Assembly: GCA_003158855.1 (NCBI GenBank)
Contig: PMLJ01000017.1
Coordinates: 1-64,000 of the forward strand
Direction of reading: 5' to 3'
DNA length: 64,000 nucleotides
From: Acidimicrobiaceae bacterium
Lineage (GTDB): Bacteria; Actinomycetota; Acidimicrobiia; Acidimicrobiales; RAAP-2
The notes beneath the pieces are model-generated. The model had not been told where the DNA came from, ran no database searches, and saw nothing but the letters and a program-made list of their open reading frames with translations. This document shows, in pieces, positions 41,691 to 47,518 of this stretch. How positions within the stretch are numbered: the first letter of the stretch is position 1; the number at the start of each line of letters is the position of its first letter. Both the position numbers and the translations under genes were made by a program.

Positions 41691-42100
41691 CTTGTGAATC
41701 GCGCCGGGAGGTCGGGAGACCATTTCATATCCAAGGCGGTGTTGACATTCGTCACTCTGGGATTTGAACGACTGCGAAATTGTGAGGCCTGAAATGACGC
41801 CTATCGCGCTGCGCAACATGGATCACAAGTCAAGTAGACCTCGCTTCGCAATCGCATCCAAACCCAATCACTTCGATTTCGTTCAGAAGTACCGCGACCG
41901 TTGGGGTCCAAGAGCGTGAACGTTCACCTACTTATAGTGGGCCGCCTGGGTCTCGATCCCAGCGCCTGAGGATTAGAAGAAGCTTGCGGATGGCTATTGT
42001 GCGTCGGTCTCGTCGCGTAGGTCTTCAGTTTTCAAGAAATTGCGTTGTCCTGCGTCGGTTTCGTCGGGTGGTGTTGCGGAAATATGAGACCTAGAATGAG
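41690..42100 (+). repeat. Long direct repeat, left copy (partner at 52510-52945)
   Basis: About 410 bp shared in order with 52510-52945: GAATCGCG..CGGGAG, GTCACTC, GTGAGGCCTGAAATGA-GCCTATCGCGCTG, ACTTCGATTTCGTTCAGAA, CGCGACCGTTGG, the palindrome GTGAACGTTCAC (41916-41927), the tRNA-like half (41935-41980) and the GTCGGTCTCGTCGCG / AATGAGGCCT flank. The two copies bracket the arsenic, Fic, GGDEF and HD-GYP genes. Confidence 0.78.
41935..41979 (-). repeat. tRNA 3'-half-like att candidate, copy 2
   Basis: Minus strand: loop CTTCTAA, stem TCCTC, variable AGGCG, T stem CTGGG, loop ATCGAGA, T stem CCCAG (fully paired), acceptor GCGGCCC, A, then CTA in place of CCA. Geometry is exactly that of a tRNA 3' half. 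The anticodon-loop triplet is altered compared with the 56.6 and 60.7 kb copies. Confidence 0.65.
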
Positions 42101-42162
42101 GCCTGTTCGGGTCCGTGGCGTCGACCACGTGTCATTGACACCGCGCACCTCCGAGGTTCTCT

Positions 42163-43947
42163 TTAATGGATCAGAACGGCTGCCTGGCGATCGGAATTCA
42201 TGAGGGACGCGAGCGAGTCTGGCCCAGCAGGCGACGTCGGCTGCCAGGAGACAAGTGCGACATCAGGATGGTAACTGAGGACCTCCCTAAGCCATCGAGT
42301 CTCATGAAGGGCGCGTGCGGCCAATACTGGGTCGTTAGTGCCGGAGGCCGAAAGGCTTTGGTTGACAATCCATGCCGCGGGGCGAATTCCGGCGCGCCCG
42401 AGATCCTCCTGAAGGGCCATCGCTTCGTGAACGGGAGTCGGCTCTGGAATGGTGACGAGCAGGATTGAAGTGAACTCCGGGTCTCGTAACCGACCGAGGA
42501 GCTCCGTGACATCATTCGGCACTTGGTCTTGTAGGCGGTTGACCTCGCGGCTGTAGCTCTCGGCTGCGTCGAGTAGCAACAAGGTGTGACCCGTGGGTGC
42601 GGTGTCGAGCACGACGATTCGGTCGGTCGCGCATGCCACGGTGGCGGCGAAAGCCTTGAAGACAGCAATCTCTGCGGTGCACGGGGACCGAAGGTCCTCT
42701 TCCAGCACGGCCCGGCTGGCGACGTCGAGATCGGCACCAGCCGTGGCGAGCACGTCCGCGATATACGCGGCCGTCGCCGCGTCCGGGTCGACTCGCTCGA
42801 CCAGCAGCCCCGCGGGCCAATCCCGTCCTTCTCCGAGCGCGTCTTGCAGGTGCGCGGCGGGGTCAGTCGTCGATAACGTGACCGGTAGCCCATGACGTGC
42901 GAGGTCGACCGCAAGTGCCGCGGCAATCGTGGTCTTGCCAACGCCACCCTTGCCCATTGTCATAACGAGTCCGTGACCTCTTGCTGCAATGTCCTCAGCG
43001 ATTTTGGCCAGGGTCGTGTTGGCCGCGTAGAATTCATCAACGGCGACGCCATTAGGGCTGCGGCCCTCAAGAAGATCTCGTAGCGCGTTCGCACCAATTG
43101 GAGCTCCAGCGAGCAGAGGCAGGGTTTCGCGACGGAGCCCCGCCAGGGATGAGGGCAGCGCCTCGAGCGCTTCGCGGTGGCGCGCCTCGAGCGCACGGGC
43201 GGTCGGATCGTGAGCGTCTTGCGCCGTGAAGACACCGTTGACCAAGAGGTGCTGGTTCGTGAGCCCCAACGTCTCGAGCTCAGCACGTGCCCGATCGGCT
43301 TCGTTGATTGCTGCGCGGTCGGGACGAGTGACGAGCACCAGCGTAGTAATCGTCGGATCGGCAAGGGCATTGAGGGCGACGCGGTAGCGGTCCTGTGCCT
43401 GGGTGAGCCCCGAGAGGGGACCGATGCAGGTGGCACCCACGGTGCTCGTGTCGAGGAATCCCGTCCATGCCGCCGGGAGTGCGAGGAGTCTCAGGGTGTG
43501 CCCGGTCGGTGCGGTGTCGAAGATGACGTGGTCGTAGACGGCGGTGGCTGCGGGATCAGCCAGTAACGCGGTGAACTCGTCGAAGGCGGCAATCTCCACG
43601 GTGCACGCGCCAGAGAGCTGCTCTTCAATGCCACTCACGATTGAGTCTGGGAGAACACCTCGAATCGGGCCGACGACCCGGTCCCGGTACGCTGCGGCAG
43701 CCGCTTCGGGATCGATGTCGAGCGCGTCGAGTCCCGAGACGTCGTTGACTGGGCTCGCGGTGCGTCCAATTGGAGTTGCGAGGACCTCGGAGAGGTTCGA
43801 CGCCGGATCGGTCGACACGAGCAGCACCCGGTGACCCATTCCGGCGAGGGCAATCGCCGTGGCCGACGAAAGTGAGGTCTTGCCGACACCACCCTTGCCG
43901 GTGAAGAACATGAACCGAGTCGGTGCAGCCAAGAGACCTTCAAGCAT
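42163..43947 (-). CDS. arsA: Arsenical pump-driving ATPase ArsA (two-domain)
   Basis: A 594-aa double ATPase. Both halves have a Walker A GKGGVGKT (near residues 17-24 and 327-334) and the DTAPTGHT signature. The Cys residues that bind As(III)/Sb(III) are present in GACTVEIAAF and ATCIGPLSG of the first half and SPCTAEIAVF of the second, matching the three ligands of plasmid ArsA. It normally powers ArsB for arsenite efflux, receiving metalloid from ArsD. The ATG at 43947, with GAGGGTGG upstream, follows the arsD stop by 13 bp. No arsB or acr3 is visible here. Confidence 0.92.
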   Translation of the reverse strand: MLEGLLAAPTRFMFFTGKGGVGKTSLSSATAIALAGMGHRVLLVSTDPASNLSEVLATPIGRTASPVNDVSGLDALDIDPEAAAAAYRDRVVGPIRGVLPDSIVSGIEEQLSGACTVEIAAFDEFTALLADPAATAVYDHVIFDTAPTGHTLRLLALPAAWTGFLDTSTVGATCIGPLSGLTQAQDRYRVALNALADPTITTLVLVTRPDRAAINEADRARAELETLGLTNQHLLVNGVFTAQDAHDPTARALEARHREALEALPSSLAGLRRETLPLLAGAPIGANALRDLLEGRSPNGVAVDEFYAANTTLAKIAEDIAARGHGLVMTMGKGGVGKTTIAAALAVDLARHGLPVTLSTTDPAAHLQDALGEGRDWPAGLLVERVDPDAATAAYIADVLATAGADLDVASRAVLEEDLRSPCTAEIAVFKAFAATVACATDRIVVLDTAPTGHTLLLLDAAESYSREVNRLQDQVPNDVTELLGRLRDPEFTSILLVTIPEPTPVHEAMALQEDLGRAGIRPAAWIVNQSLSASGTNDPVLAARALHETRWLREVLSYHPDVALVSWQPTSPAGPDSLASLMNSDRQAAVLIH

Positions 43948-43960
43948 CAGAGTGCCACCC

Positions 43961-44482
43961 TCAGCAACAGCTGGGTGCGTCGGTCGGCTTTGCACCTAGT
44001 GCAACCGACTCGGACGGCGCACAGCACGACGGGGCGTCGGACTCTGTTGCCGAGGTTTCGCGCGGTGCACAGCACGACGCGGTCGGCGGCTCACTCGCCA
44101 GTTCGCCACTTACTTCGTTGGTGGTTGAGCCAATGAGTTCCTTGACGTTGACCGAGAGTTGGTCGGCGGGTAGTACCGGAACCTCGGCTGAGGCCCACGC
44201 GGCCAACTCCTCACGGACTGGGAATCGACCGGTGGCGCGCAACTCGCCGTCGGCGAAGATGACTGGGAGTGCTGCTTCGCCCCTCTCGGTCAGGAGTGCT
44301 CGTACCTGCTCGTTCTCGCCAAAAGCCACTGGCTCTTGGCCAAGGTTGAATCGTCGGACGGTCGCTCCGGTCGACGCCAACCAGTCGAGGTCGGCGGCGA
44401 ACTTCACGAGGGCGGGATCGACACTCGGGCCACACACTCCGGTCGAGCAACACATGGCGGGGTCGAATACTTCAATCTGCAC
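43961..44482 (-). CDS. arsD: Arsenic metallochaperone ArsD
   Basis: A 173-aa ArsD, which hands As(III) to ArsA. The N-terminal thioredoxin-like domain begins IEVFDPAMCCSTGVCGPSVDP, carrying the three cysteines (residues 11, 12 and 17) needed for binding. GEAALPVIFADGELRATGRFP is the usual core. The C-terminal tail is long, with three vicinal Cys pairs (TASCCAP, APSCCAP, and a terminal SCC), as in ArsD proteins with extra metalloid-binding pairs. A palindromic TATCGT-ACGATA site lies just upstream. Confidence 0.92.
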   Translation of the reverse strand: MQIEVFDPAMCCSTGVCGPSVDPALVKFAADLDWLASTGATVRRFNLGQEPVAFGENEQVRALLTERGEAALPVIFADGELRATGRFPVREELAAWASAEVPVLPADQLSVNVKELIGSTTNEVSGELASEPPTASCCAPRETSATESDAPSCCAPSESVALGAKPTDAPSCC

Positions 44483-44501
44483 GACTGCTCCTCTGGATTC
44501 T

Positions 44502-44519
44502 TATCGTTAATCGACGATA
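44502..44519. promoter_or_regulatory. Operator candidate between arsR and arsD
   Basis: TATCGT-taatcg-ACGATA, a perfect 6-bp inverted repeat 20 bp upstream of the arsD start. Its half-site core (ATCGT) matches that of the site in front of arsR, so both may bind the local ArsR, giving arsDA its own promoter. Confidence 0.5.
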
Positions 44520-44561
44520 GCCGATAGATTTACGTATGTCAATCAGTTCAGAGGACCTAGT

Positions 44562-44906
44562 TCAGAGCGCCGCGACGCCGGCCTTGAGTGCGGCGAGGCC
44601 CGTGGCACTCACGCAGTATCGCGTACGGGGACCCTCGATCTCGCTTTGGATCAGGCCCGCCTCGCGCAGTATTCGCAGGTGTTCGGACACTGTCGATTGG
44701 GCCAGCGCCAGCTCGGCAACAACGTCACCGGTGACGCAGGTCCGGTGGGCGTCGAGAACCCGAAGGATCCTCACTCGAGTCGGATGCGCAATCGCCTTGG
44801 CCATGACCGCCAGGGTGTCGTCGTCTCGTACTTCAACTTCAAGCGAAGTGGCATCGACGTCGCAGCACTCCGACGAGTTCACGGTGGGTCCAGATTGCAA
44901 GGTCAT
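44562..44906 (-). CDS. arsR: ArsR/SmtB-family arsenic-responsive repressor
   Basis: A 114-aa winged-helix repressor. AKAIAHPTRVRILRVLDAHRTCVTGDVV and ELALAQSTVSEHLRILREAGLI are the DNA-binding core with recognition helix. Possible As(III) ligands are the SECCDVD pair near residue 14 and the Cys in RTCVTGD (about 57), the non-canonical layout known from actinobacterial ArsR types. The operator-like palindrome at 44905-44921 overlaps the start codon, so the transcript may be leaderless, or a later start is used. Confidence 0.87.
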   Translation of the reverse strand: MTLQSGPTVNSSECCDVDATSLEVEVRDDDTLAVMAKAIAHPTRVRILRVLDAHRTCVTGDVVAELALAQSTVSEHLRILREAGLIQSEIEGPRTRYCVSATGLAALKAGVAAL

Positions 44907-44921
44907 CGTTCTACGAACGAT
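44905..44921. promoter_or_regulatory. Operator candidate at the arsR start
   Basis: ATCGTTC-TAC-GAACGAT, a 7-bp perfect inverted repeat overlapping the first base of the arsR start codon. Shares the ATCGTT half-site with the site before arsD. Confidence 0.55.
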
Positions 44922-44993
44922 AACTCATTAATGTCGCCCGAATCGCACCCAAAGTTGAGCAGGGACTTGGCAGACTTGTCCGAGATGAAATTT

Positions 44994-45011
44994 ACTCAAG
45001 AAATATTGAGT
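44994..45011. promoter_or_regulatory. Operator candidate before the ArsR-phosphatase gene
   Basis: ACTCAA-gaaata-TTGAGT, a 6-bp inverted repeat with the TCAA-N6-TTGA form common to ArsR-type operators, 15 bp before the GTG at 45026. Its half-site differs from the ATCGT sites, suggesting that the two divergent transcripts answer to different ArsR proteins. Confidence 0.5.
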
Positions 45012-45025
45012 GATAATGTCACTTC

Positions 45026-45698
45026 GTGATTCGAAATCCAGTGGTCGAACATCGAGCAGCCCTGCACGCCGCGCTTGGCGATGCGGTCCGACTCTCGATT
45101 GTCGACGAGCTCATGGTCTCGGACCGTGCGCCAGTTGAACTCCAGGCTCTGACTGGTCTCGAGTCGAACCTGCTGGCCCACCACCTGGACATGCTCGAAG
45201 AGGCAGGTCTCATAGTGCGCTCGCATTCGAGCGGCGACGCCCGGCGCCGTTACGTTCGCCTCGTCCGTGGCGCCCTCGGCGAACTCGAGCTCTCCGTTGA
45301 CCGGACGCCGAATGACGCCCTCTTTATCTGCACGAGGAACTCTGCGCGCAGCCAGCTCGCTGCGGCGCTGTGGAGAGAGATCACCGGATGTGGCGCCCAG
45401 TCCGCGGGAACTCATCCGGCGCAGAGAGTGCACCCCGGTGCCATCGCCGCCGCAGAGCGTTCGGGGCTCGACCTCCGCGACGCGATACCGCGCCGATTTG
45501 ACGAAGTCGCGGTTGTGCCACTGCTGGTGATCACGGTGTGCGATCGGGCACATGAGGAGATCGGTTCGGATCAGGGATGGTGGCACTGGTCAGTGCCCGA
45601 CCCGTTGCAGCGAGCAACGAAGCGCGAGTTCGACGACCGTCGCCGATCTGCGAGAGCGAATCGAAGCGATCTTCGAGGCCGGAGAGAGTCTTCCATGA
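45026..45698 (+). pseudogene. ArsR-LMW-phosphatase (arsenate reductase-like) fusion gene, 1-nt frameshift near its end
   Basis: Residues 1-90 form an ArsR-type winged helix (ALGDAVRLSIVDELM, LLAHHLDMLEEAGLIVRSH); residues about 95-205 form a low-molecular-weight phosphatase/arsenate-reductase domain with the CTRNSARSQLAAALW active-site loop. After HWSVPDP the given frame runs into nonsense (RRRSARANRSDLRGRR) and joins the aquaporin. One base over, the natural tail is intact: VADLRERIEAIFEAGESLP then TGA at 45696-45698. A one-base insertion just before 45639 explains this. The intended stop overlaps the aquaporin ATG (ATGA). Confidence 0.75.
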
Positions 45699-46444
45699 GC
45701 AGTCGCGACGCTGAGAATGCGATCAAGCAGCTCGGCGTACTGCCAGAGACCGGCACGGGCCAGCTCCGGCTCAACCTGACGCGACGACTGATCGCCGAGA
45801 CTTTGGGGACGGCTTTCTTGTTGATTGCGGTGGTCGGATCGGGAATCATGGCGAGCCGCCTCTCTCCGAGTGACACGGGACTCCAGTTGCTCGAGAATGC
45901 GGCGGCGACGGTCGCGGCGCTGATTGGGCTGATCCTCATGTTCGGGGCGGTCTCGGGAGCCCATTTCAATCCCGTCGTTACTCTCGTCGACCGATTGCTC
46001 GGGACCATCAGAACCCGGGATGCTCTGCTCTACGTGGTCGCCCAGATCGCGGGCGGCTGTCTCGGAACCATTTGCGCGAACGTCATGTTTTCGCTCCCCG
46101 TCGTCGCCCTTTCGACAAAGGTTCGCTCGTCGGGCGCGCTGTGGTTTTCTGAGGTGCTCGCGACCATCGGGCTGCTCCTCGTCATCCACGGCTGCGTCCG
46201 TACCGGACGGGCCAACGCCGTTCCTTTCGCGGTCGGGATCTGGATCGGCGGTGCGTACTTCTTTACGTCGTCGACGAGTTTCGCCAATCCCGCAGCCGCA
46301 ATCGGCCGATCCCTGTCGAACTCGTTCGCGGGAATAAGGCCGAGCTCAGTGCCGATGTTCGTCGTAATGGAGGTCATCGGCGCCCTCATTGCGTACGCAC
46401 TGATCCGGTTCATCTTCCCGCACAACCACTCGGAGGCCCCATGA
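45695..46444 (+). CDS. Aquaporin (MIP family) in the arsenic operon
   Basis: A 249-aa major-intrinsic-protein channel with six membrane helices. The first half-helix motif is SGAHFNPVVTL (NPV in place of NPA), the second is SFANPAAAIGRSL (NPA), each at the expected distance. ATG 45695 overlaps the intended stop of the upstream gene. In ars operons such AqpS-like channels let arsenite leave the cell down its gradient after arsenate reduction. Because of the upstream frameshift the present sequence would read it as a C-terminal extension of the ArsR-phosphatase unless it starts at its own ATG. It overlaps arsC by 4 bp. Confidence 0.85.
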   Translation: MSSRDAENAIKQLGVLPETGTGQLRLNLTRRLIAETLGTAFLLIAVVGSGIMASRLSPSDTGLQLLENAAATVAALIGLILMFGAVSGAHFNPVVTLVDRLLGTIRTRDALLYVVAQIAGGCLGTICANVMFSLPVVALSTKVRSSGALWFSEVLATIGLLLVIHGCVRTGRANAVPFAVGIWIGGAYFFTSSTSFANPAAAIGRSLSNSFAGIRPSSVPMFVVMEVIGALIAYALIRFIFPHNHSEAP

Positions 46445-46854
46445 GCGTCAATCGACCCGAAGTCCTTTTCTTGTGCGTGCACAATGCCGGCCGGTCCCAG
46501 ATGGCCGCGGCATTCGCGCGCGAGATCGGCGCCGGCCGCGTCGTTGTTCACTCGGCCGGTTCCGCGCCGGGTGAGACCCTCAACCCCGCGGTCGTCGAGG
46601 TGATGCGCGAGAAAGGCATTGACATCACGGGCGAGCGCCCGCAGAAGTTGACCGACGAGATGGCCCTGAGCGCCGACGTGGTGGTCACCATGGGCTGCGG
46701 CGACGCCTGTCCGGTCTATCCGGGCAAGCGCTATGTCGATTGGGAGCTCATCGATCCGGCCGGCAAGCAGATCGAGGACGTCCGGCCGATCCGCGATGAC
46801 GTCGAGCGGCGCGTGACGGCGCTCATTGACGAACTGCTCGACGTGAAGAACTAA
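46441..46854 (+). CDS. arsC: Arsenate reductase ArsC, LMW-phosphatase type
   Basis: A 137-aa arsenate reductase. The active-site loop LCVHNAGRSQMA gives the nucleophilic Cys (residue 12), and TMGCGDACPVYPGKRYVDWEL has two further Cys (about 83 and 87), the arrangement of enzymes recycled by a thiol cascade (thioredoxin or mycothiol/mycoredoxin). It reduces As(V) to As(III) for export. Starts in a 4-bp overlap with the aquaporin gene; a second arsC follows 13 bp after its stop. Confidence 0.9.
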   Translation: MSVNRPEVLFLCVHNAGRSQMAAAFAREIGAGRVVVHSAGSAPGETLNPAVVEVMREKGIDITGERPQKLTDEMALSADVVVTMGCGDACPVYPGKRYVDWELIDPAGKQIEDVRPIRDDVERRVTALIDELLDVKN

Positions 46855-46867
46855 GGAGAAAGAAACC

Positions 46868-47518
46868 GTGTCCGACAACCGTCTCATTGAAGAACTTCCA
46901 CCGAGCGACCAGCGTCCGCTCCGTCCCGCACTGGCGGATCTACTCAAAGAATTTCACGGCACCTTCGACGACGAGACTATCGAACACTTCCTGGTCGACT
47001 CCTACGACCGACTCGCCGCCAATTCGAAATCGAGGAACTTCTTGAGCGTTCTCTCGGAGCGATTCGCACGTGAACGCCTTGTGGCGATGACCAGAGTCGA
47101 TGCAGTGGCCAAAGGCAAGCCCGGCGTTCTGTTCCTTTGCGTCCATAACGCTGGCCGTTCGCAAATGGCTGCAGGTTGGCTGCGGAGCATCGCTGGCGAT
47201 CGCGTCGAGGTCTTCACCGGTGGCTCGGAGCCAGCGGCCGCGTTGAATCCGATAGTCGTCGAAGCCATGGCCGAAGTCGGCGTCGACATTCATGAGGAAT
47301 TCCCCAAGCCTTGGACCGTCGAAGTCGTGCGCGCGGTGGATGTTGTCATTGCCATGGGCTGCGGTGATGTCTGTCCCGTCTACCCCGGAAAGAGCTACGT
47401 TGACTGGGAGTTGAACGACCCCGAAGGAATGAGTCTTGAGGGCGTGCGTCAGGTCCGAGATGAACTGAGAGATCGGGTGCAGAGCTTGGCTCACGAATTA
47501 TTGTCGCCTACACCCTGA
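46868..47518 (+). CDS. Arsenate reductase with N-terminal three-helix-bundle domain
   Basis: A 216-aa protein. Residues about 15-78 (LRPALADLLKEFHGTFDDETIEHFLVDSYDRLA) are the three-helix dimerisation bundle found on some actinobacterial ArsC proteins; residues about 85-216 repeat the ArsC domain with LCVHNAGRSQMAAGWL and AMGCGDVCPVYPGKSYVDWEL. All active-site Cys are kept, so it should be active, probably with mycothiol as partner (inference). GTG 46868 is preceded by AAGGAG. Last gene of the arsenic operon. Confidence 0.88.
   Translation: MSDNRLIEELPPSDQRPLRPALADLLKEFHGTFDDETIEHFLVDSYDRLAANSKSRNFLSVLSERFARERLVAMTRVDAVAKGKPGVLFLCVHNAGRSQMAAGWLRSIAGDRVEVFTGGSEPAAALNPIVVEAMAEVGVDIHEEFPKPWTVEVVRAVDVVIAMGCGDVCPVYPGKSYVDWELNDPEGMSLEGVRQVRDELRDRVQSLAHELLSPTP

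Follow-up and report, generated by a model that had tools for sequence, protein, structure and literature searches.

An open frame across ArsR, phosphatase and aquaporin genes in an Acidimicrobiaceae genome: probably two overlapping genes that lack two bases in this sequence only

Passages of PMC6205960 report ArsR-ArsC fusion proteins from L. ferriphilum, Microbacterium and Sinorhizobium. The same passages describe the AqpS-ArsC channel-enzyme fusion of Salinispora tropica (Wu et al. 2010), in which the channel comes first and which was reported to work. In Frankia, according to a portion of PMC4531530, aqpS adjoins arsR and arsC. Unclustered frame breaks have been attributed, in part of PMC3711429, to sequencing errors, recent indels, false positives or orphan recoding, with breaks near a gene's 3' end leaning toward indels. 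A protein that joins ArsR, ArsC and an aquaporin was not found by title in full-text literature searches, a result that is no proof of absence.

The DNA analysed here (the window) covers positions 1-64000 of the 68,266-base contig 38. The Acidimicrobiaceae assembly to which it belongs has 2.7 Mb in 50 contigs, is 96.5% complete and is apparently a MAG. The arsenic operon of the window seems to consist of an ArsR-like regulator fused to a low-molecular-weight (LMW) phosphatase or ArsC-like domain, followed by an aquaporin and a pair of ArsC genes. By description, the intact first gene of relatives is like the ArsR-ArsC fusions, in that it encodes a single protein whose ArsR-like domain precedes an ArsC-like one; however, only two cysteines are invariant in the ArsR-phosphatase family, and the last helix of the window copy is lost to a frameshift. 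Like AqpS-ArsC, the window record places an aquaglyceroporin-like channel and an arsenate reductase in one chain. Unlike AqpS-ArsC, the window frame has the enzyme before the channel (a fusion order shared by no relative among 33 distinct ones), owes its join to a frameshift and carries a damaged enzyme half; a channel-first fusion common to relatives is not what this locus represents. As in the Frankia neighborhoods, regulator, aquaporin and reductase genes stand together, but here the regulator has its own phosphatase domain and two further arsC genes lie downstream. The locus adds no new kind of arrangement, being an already known one, an ordinary overlapping pair from which two bases are missing in this sequence only. 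Very probably the two genes were joined by a recent indel private to this genome or by a sequence or assembly error, and the join is not an evolved architecture.

Layout of the open frame

The original prediction read a 472-amino-acid frame at 45026-46444 (plus strand) as ArsR, LMW phosphatase and aquaporin, and this description holds. The frame has a GTG start, 472 codons and no internal stop, and Pfam places LMWPc at residues 99-193 and MIP at residues 250-407 of the product. The NCBIfam model HTH_metalloreg matches residues 12-84 with 34.2 bits, under its cut-off of 55. HTH_5 and HTH_20 are likewise under cut-off in the window and in its nearest relative, L040, whereas HTH_20 is above cut-off in L045. 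The L040 ArsR-phosphatase protein also matches the solved repressor 6j0e (E 6.4e-6). The support for a winged-helix (ArsR/SmtB-type) domain in the first gene is weak but consistent. No cysteine of an ArsR/SmtB metal site is present in this half (residues 1-101 of the window protein), and alignment A1 (33 rows including the window) has no invariant cysteine there. The P-loop C-x5-R and the DP motif of the LMW phosphatase/ArsC-like fold are present, and C102, R108 and D192 are invariant in 33 of 33 rows.

The nearest named relatives are the Acidimicrobiaceae MAGs palsa_646 (L040) and bog_576 (L041), whose nucleotide identities over the gene pair are 93% and 86%; matches indicate that L040 is the same record as G011:C8 and L041 the same as G016:C69. 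The part of the ArsR-phosphatase gene upstream of the lesion (45026..45637, plus strand, 204 codons from the GTG start) is 91% identical to palsa_646 and 88% identical to bog_576. Past the lesion, the native phosphatase tail, VADLRERIEAIFEAGESLP, can be read from 45639 in the next frame (45639..45698, plus strand), and its stop, TGA at 45696-45698, overlaps the aquaporin ATG at 45695-45697. This out-of-frame tail had also been recognized in the original prediction. Its counterpart closes the ArsR-phosphatase gene in the relatives compared, so that the tail is beyond chance. In the fused frame, the same stretch (45638..45694, plus strand) is translated after FDD as a 19-residue linker, RRRSARANRSDLRGRRESS, which has 8 arginines and stands in place of the end of the last helix.

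The aquaporin (45695..46444, plus strand) is an intact MIP-family gene with its own ATG and 249 codons plus a stop (Pfam PF00230, 77.9 bits), and it is 97% identical to that of palsa_646. Two NPA-type loops, HFNPVV and FANPAA, can be read from the window sequence. The first of these motifs (45962-45979) is NPV rather than NPA, and the second is NPA. Relative to the window, the aquaporin gene of bog_576 is shorter by 69 nt, in frame, close to the 3' end. The window gene retains both its ATG and a GGAG ten bases 5' of the start, so that independent aquaporin starts could still take place. The next gene of the operon is an ArsC with three cysteines (46441..46854, plus strand), whose start overlaps the aquaporin stop (ATGA), and a second ArsC with an N-terminal extension follows (46868..47518, plus strand). 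Overlaps of the form ATGA thus chain successive genes at 45695-45698 and 46441-46444, a pattern that suggests translational coupling along the operon.

Cysteine content differs between these proteins. In the ArsR-phosphatase family, as represented by alignment A1, the only invariant cysteines are C102, in the P-loop, and C172. The second resolving cysteine of the neighboring ArsC proteins (CGDAC in 46441-46854, CGDVC in 46868-47518) has no counterpart in this family.

The gene pair in relatives

After removal of 19 duplicates and plain contig pieces from 126 loci, 107 were left. A near full-length ArsR-phosphatase match with an aquaporin directly downstream occurs in 37 of these, namely the window and 36 relatives, of which three (L099, L100 and L106) are identical copies, leaving 33 distinct relatives; the remaining 70 loci are without one of the two genes by the cut-offs used and were excluded from the count. 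The aquaporin start was taken as the in-frame ATG, GTG or TTG closest to the stop. The two genes are in different frames in all 36 relatives (33 of 33 distinct), and they overlap by four nucleotides (ATGA or GTGA) in 35 of the 36 (32 of the 33); the overlap in L045 is 1 nt. This NTGA overlap resembles that of the translationally coupled adjacent genes treated in part of PMC3711429. Such an overlap would usually be understood as putative coupling, by which a ribosome that ends gene one would restart on gene two. Only in the window sequence is the frame relation abolished: the overlapping stop and start letters are kept, but the frame is shifted. No in-frame ArsR-phosphatase-aquaporin fusion occurs among the 33 distinct relatives, and the window is the only one of the 37 loci in which the two genes are in frame. 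The earlier proposal that a frameshift joins a normal two-gene overlap is therefore well founded, in that the separate pair is the normal state. In four further loci (L007-L010), the ArsR-phosphatase gene ends in ATGA, and no aquaporin match was found in the stretch examined.

In a second comparison, which covered 112 of 138 loci, stop-to-stop frames of at least 180 codons were translated. An aquaporin match falls in a single open frame in 105 of the 112, and only in the window does that frame also include ArsR and phosphatase upstream of the aquaporin. Genome searches at four ranks, with 99 genomes for the genus, 172 for the family, 395 for the class and 396 for the phylum, gave the same picture (the sets overlap, and those for class and phylum were sampled and E-limited): among the matches listed, residues 1-472 are covered only in the window's own genome, and an evolved triple fusion was rejected on this ground. 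Also listed was a weak match in G130 (residues 142-470, 30% identity) with three TGA codons. A match in G410 (L120) spans residues 97-466 with a TAG inside; it was considered as a phosphatase-aquaporin fusion and rejected, as its two parts belong to different genes, an ordinary ArsC and, downstream, an aquaporin.

In three other loci (L011 on the minus strand, L061 4240- and L062 4240-), the aquaporin continues into a downstream ArsC in one open frame of 443, 523 and 519 codons, respectively, from stop to stop. From their sequences, these are apparent AqpS-ArsC channel-enzyme fusions with the channel first.

The openness of the triple frame is not in itself a sign of selection. The aquaporin frame is open for at least 60 nt upstream of its start in 25 of the 33 distinct relatives, in which a like shift would also join the frames; in palsa_646, the nearest, a stop would have ended the joined frame. 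Relative to palsa_646, dN/dS is 0.14 for the ArsR-phosphatase part and 0.09 for the aquaporin, and by this measure both halves are under purifying selection. The native-frame tail has 5 nonsynonymous and 4 synonymous changes (dN/dS 0.41) over just 19 codons, too few to date the lesion. This ratio could reflect some relaxation after an older lesion; the tail is also variable among relatives.

The topology of a MIP channel would allow a cytoplasmic fusion at its N-terminus, and the window frame is open with both halves conserved. A regulator-reductase-channel protein that evolved as such and functions would also have parallels in the ArsR-ArsC and AqpS-ArsC fusions described in passages of PMC6205960 and in the three loci in which an aquaporin runs into ArsC. 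Such an origin is nonetheless highly improbable: none of the 33 distinct relatives is fused in the enzyme-then-channel order, composition leads one to expect an open frame, the native tail can still be recognized, and the last phosphatase helix is replaced by an arginine-rich stretch of low predicted confidence.

The lesion and the phosphatase domain

The frame break had been attributed to a one-base insertion just before 45639, and the comparative evidence goes against this. At the lesion site (45634..45637, plus strand), the DNA of both palsa_646 and bog_576 is two bases longer, GACGCGACC as compared with GACGACC in the window. The 1419-base alignment of the window with palsa_646 has no further internal gap, and that with bog_576 has two more, both in frame and within the aquaporin gene. 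A blastn alignment with G011:C8 puts the gap at 45636, but gap placement inside the CG repeat (45634..45637) is arbitrary. The helix spacing FD-x5-[LIM]-x2-[RW]-[IV] is kept in 36 of 36 relatives tested (32 of alignment A1 plus 4, out of 37 distinct ones with L104 left out), and reading the window with a single base skipped makes the helix one residue too short. Because of the longer DNA in both relatives and the helix spacing, the most suitable reading of the lesion is that a CG repeat has lost two bases. A one-base gain, which has the same frame arithmetic modulo 3, was rejected on the same two lines of evidence.

The sequence around the lesion is otherwise clean. Over the stretch from ArsA to the first ArsC gene (about 41937-46854), the window differs from G011 by three other gaps, of which one, of 48 nt, lies within the ArsD gene and is in frame, and two, of 1 and 2 nt, are intergenic. 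Beyond 46854, a gap of 2 nt falls between the two ArsC genes, and the second of these has a diverged stretch with small gaps that offset one another.

The intact native tail one frame over could also be explained by programmed ribosomal frameshifting, by which both the tail and the fusion would be made. The chance of this is negligible. The relatives compared encode the tail without a shift, so that there is no conserved frame break; re-pairing of tRNA-Asp from GAC to ACC would, as reasoned from the sequence, lose two of three pairs; and no known shift motif was recognized at the site by eye. Programmed frameshifting was rejected on these three points.

The two-base loss leaves the phosphatase domain incomplete. 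In palsa_646, LMWPc matches model positions 1-140 of 144, whereas the window match stops at position 94 or 121, and a complete domain including the last helix is absent from the window. The predicted structure of the palsa_646 protein has a mean pLDDT of 88.6, with block means of 94 and 97 up to residue 210 and 76 for residues 211-220, and a terminal helix at 199-218. Foldseek matches this model to ArsC and LMW phosphatases, the best being Deinococcus ArsC2 (8p5n), with pI258 ArsC (1jf8) also found. In the fused model, block means for residues 191-250 are 38-53, and a helix is nonetheless drawn at 199-220. The two models come from unlike alignments (33 rows, as against 24 rows mixing two families), so that the low values around the junction are no more than suggestive. 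Together, these predictions suggest that the lesion puts an arginine-rich segment in place of the greater part of the final phosphatase helix. On the grounds of its sequence, the phosphatase half of the ArsR-phosphatase protein may be an arsenic sensor rather than a full reductase.

Origin and consequences of the lesion

The preferred reading, a small indel or error in an ordinary pair, would act as follows. Two bases appear to have been lost in a CG repeat about 60 bases upstream of the overlap, in a single MAG consensus. A ribosome thus shifted would leave the last phosphatase helix, pass its stop and enter the aquaporin frame by chance. If cells carry the deletion, the likely results are loss of that helix and a damaged regulator tethered to the membrane; some aquaporin would perhaps still be made from its own ATG.

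An even chance is given to the deletion being real in the sampled population, as a recent contraction by slippage that has both damaged the ArsR-phosphatase and run it into the aquaporin. Contraction of a CG repeat is a typical slippage event, and this is the sole uncompensated coding indel in the G011-aligned stretch from ArsA to the first ArsC gene. Loss of this copy could be tolerated, as a further Acr3-ArsC locus lies on contig 39 of this genome. The position of the break near the end of the gene also fits the lean toward indels noted in part of PMC3711429. Against this stand its occurrence in one MAG only and the apparent constraint on both genes relative to palsa_646.

An assembly or sequencing error, with cells carrying the normal two-gene overlap, is rated somewhat short of even. 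It is favored by the MAG-like consensus, by the uniqueness of the deletion among 33 distinct relatives and by purifying selection on both genes. However, two-base errors would be unusual if this is a short-read consensus, and the local error rate looks low, as the rest of the aligned ars region has no other uncompensated coding indel. A real recent indel is placed slightly ahead of error.

It is very unlikely that the deletion is both genuine and fixed in a living lineage in which a membrane-anchored ArsR-phosphatase-aquaporin chimera is expressed and alters arsenic regulation. If this were so, a membrane-tethered repressor might, for example, derepress the operon, and the locus would be a snapshot of a small indel at a 4-nt overlap making a fusion protein.

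Alone, the locus is of little importance. It illustrates that a spectacular chimera can enter the record when genes are called on an assembly, even though 33 distinct relatives speak against it. It also illustrates that, where genes in GC-rich DNA overlap by 4 nt, two frames can be joined by a small indel, as would be possible in 25 of those 33. ArsR-ArsC-aquaporin should not be entered as a domain architecture from the window record alone.

Elsewhere in the operon region, the ArsD-like protein encoded at 43961-44482 (minus strand) has a C-terminus with three SCC pairs (SCCAPRE..SCCAPSE..PSCC). Since the window ArsD gene has 48 nt in frame beyond that of G011, the number of cysteine-pair repeats probably differs between close relatives.
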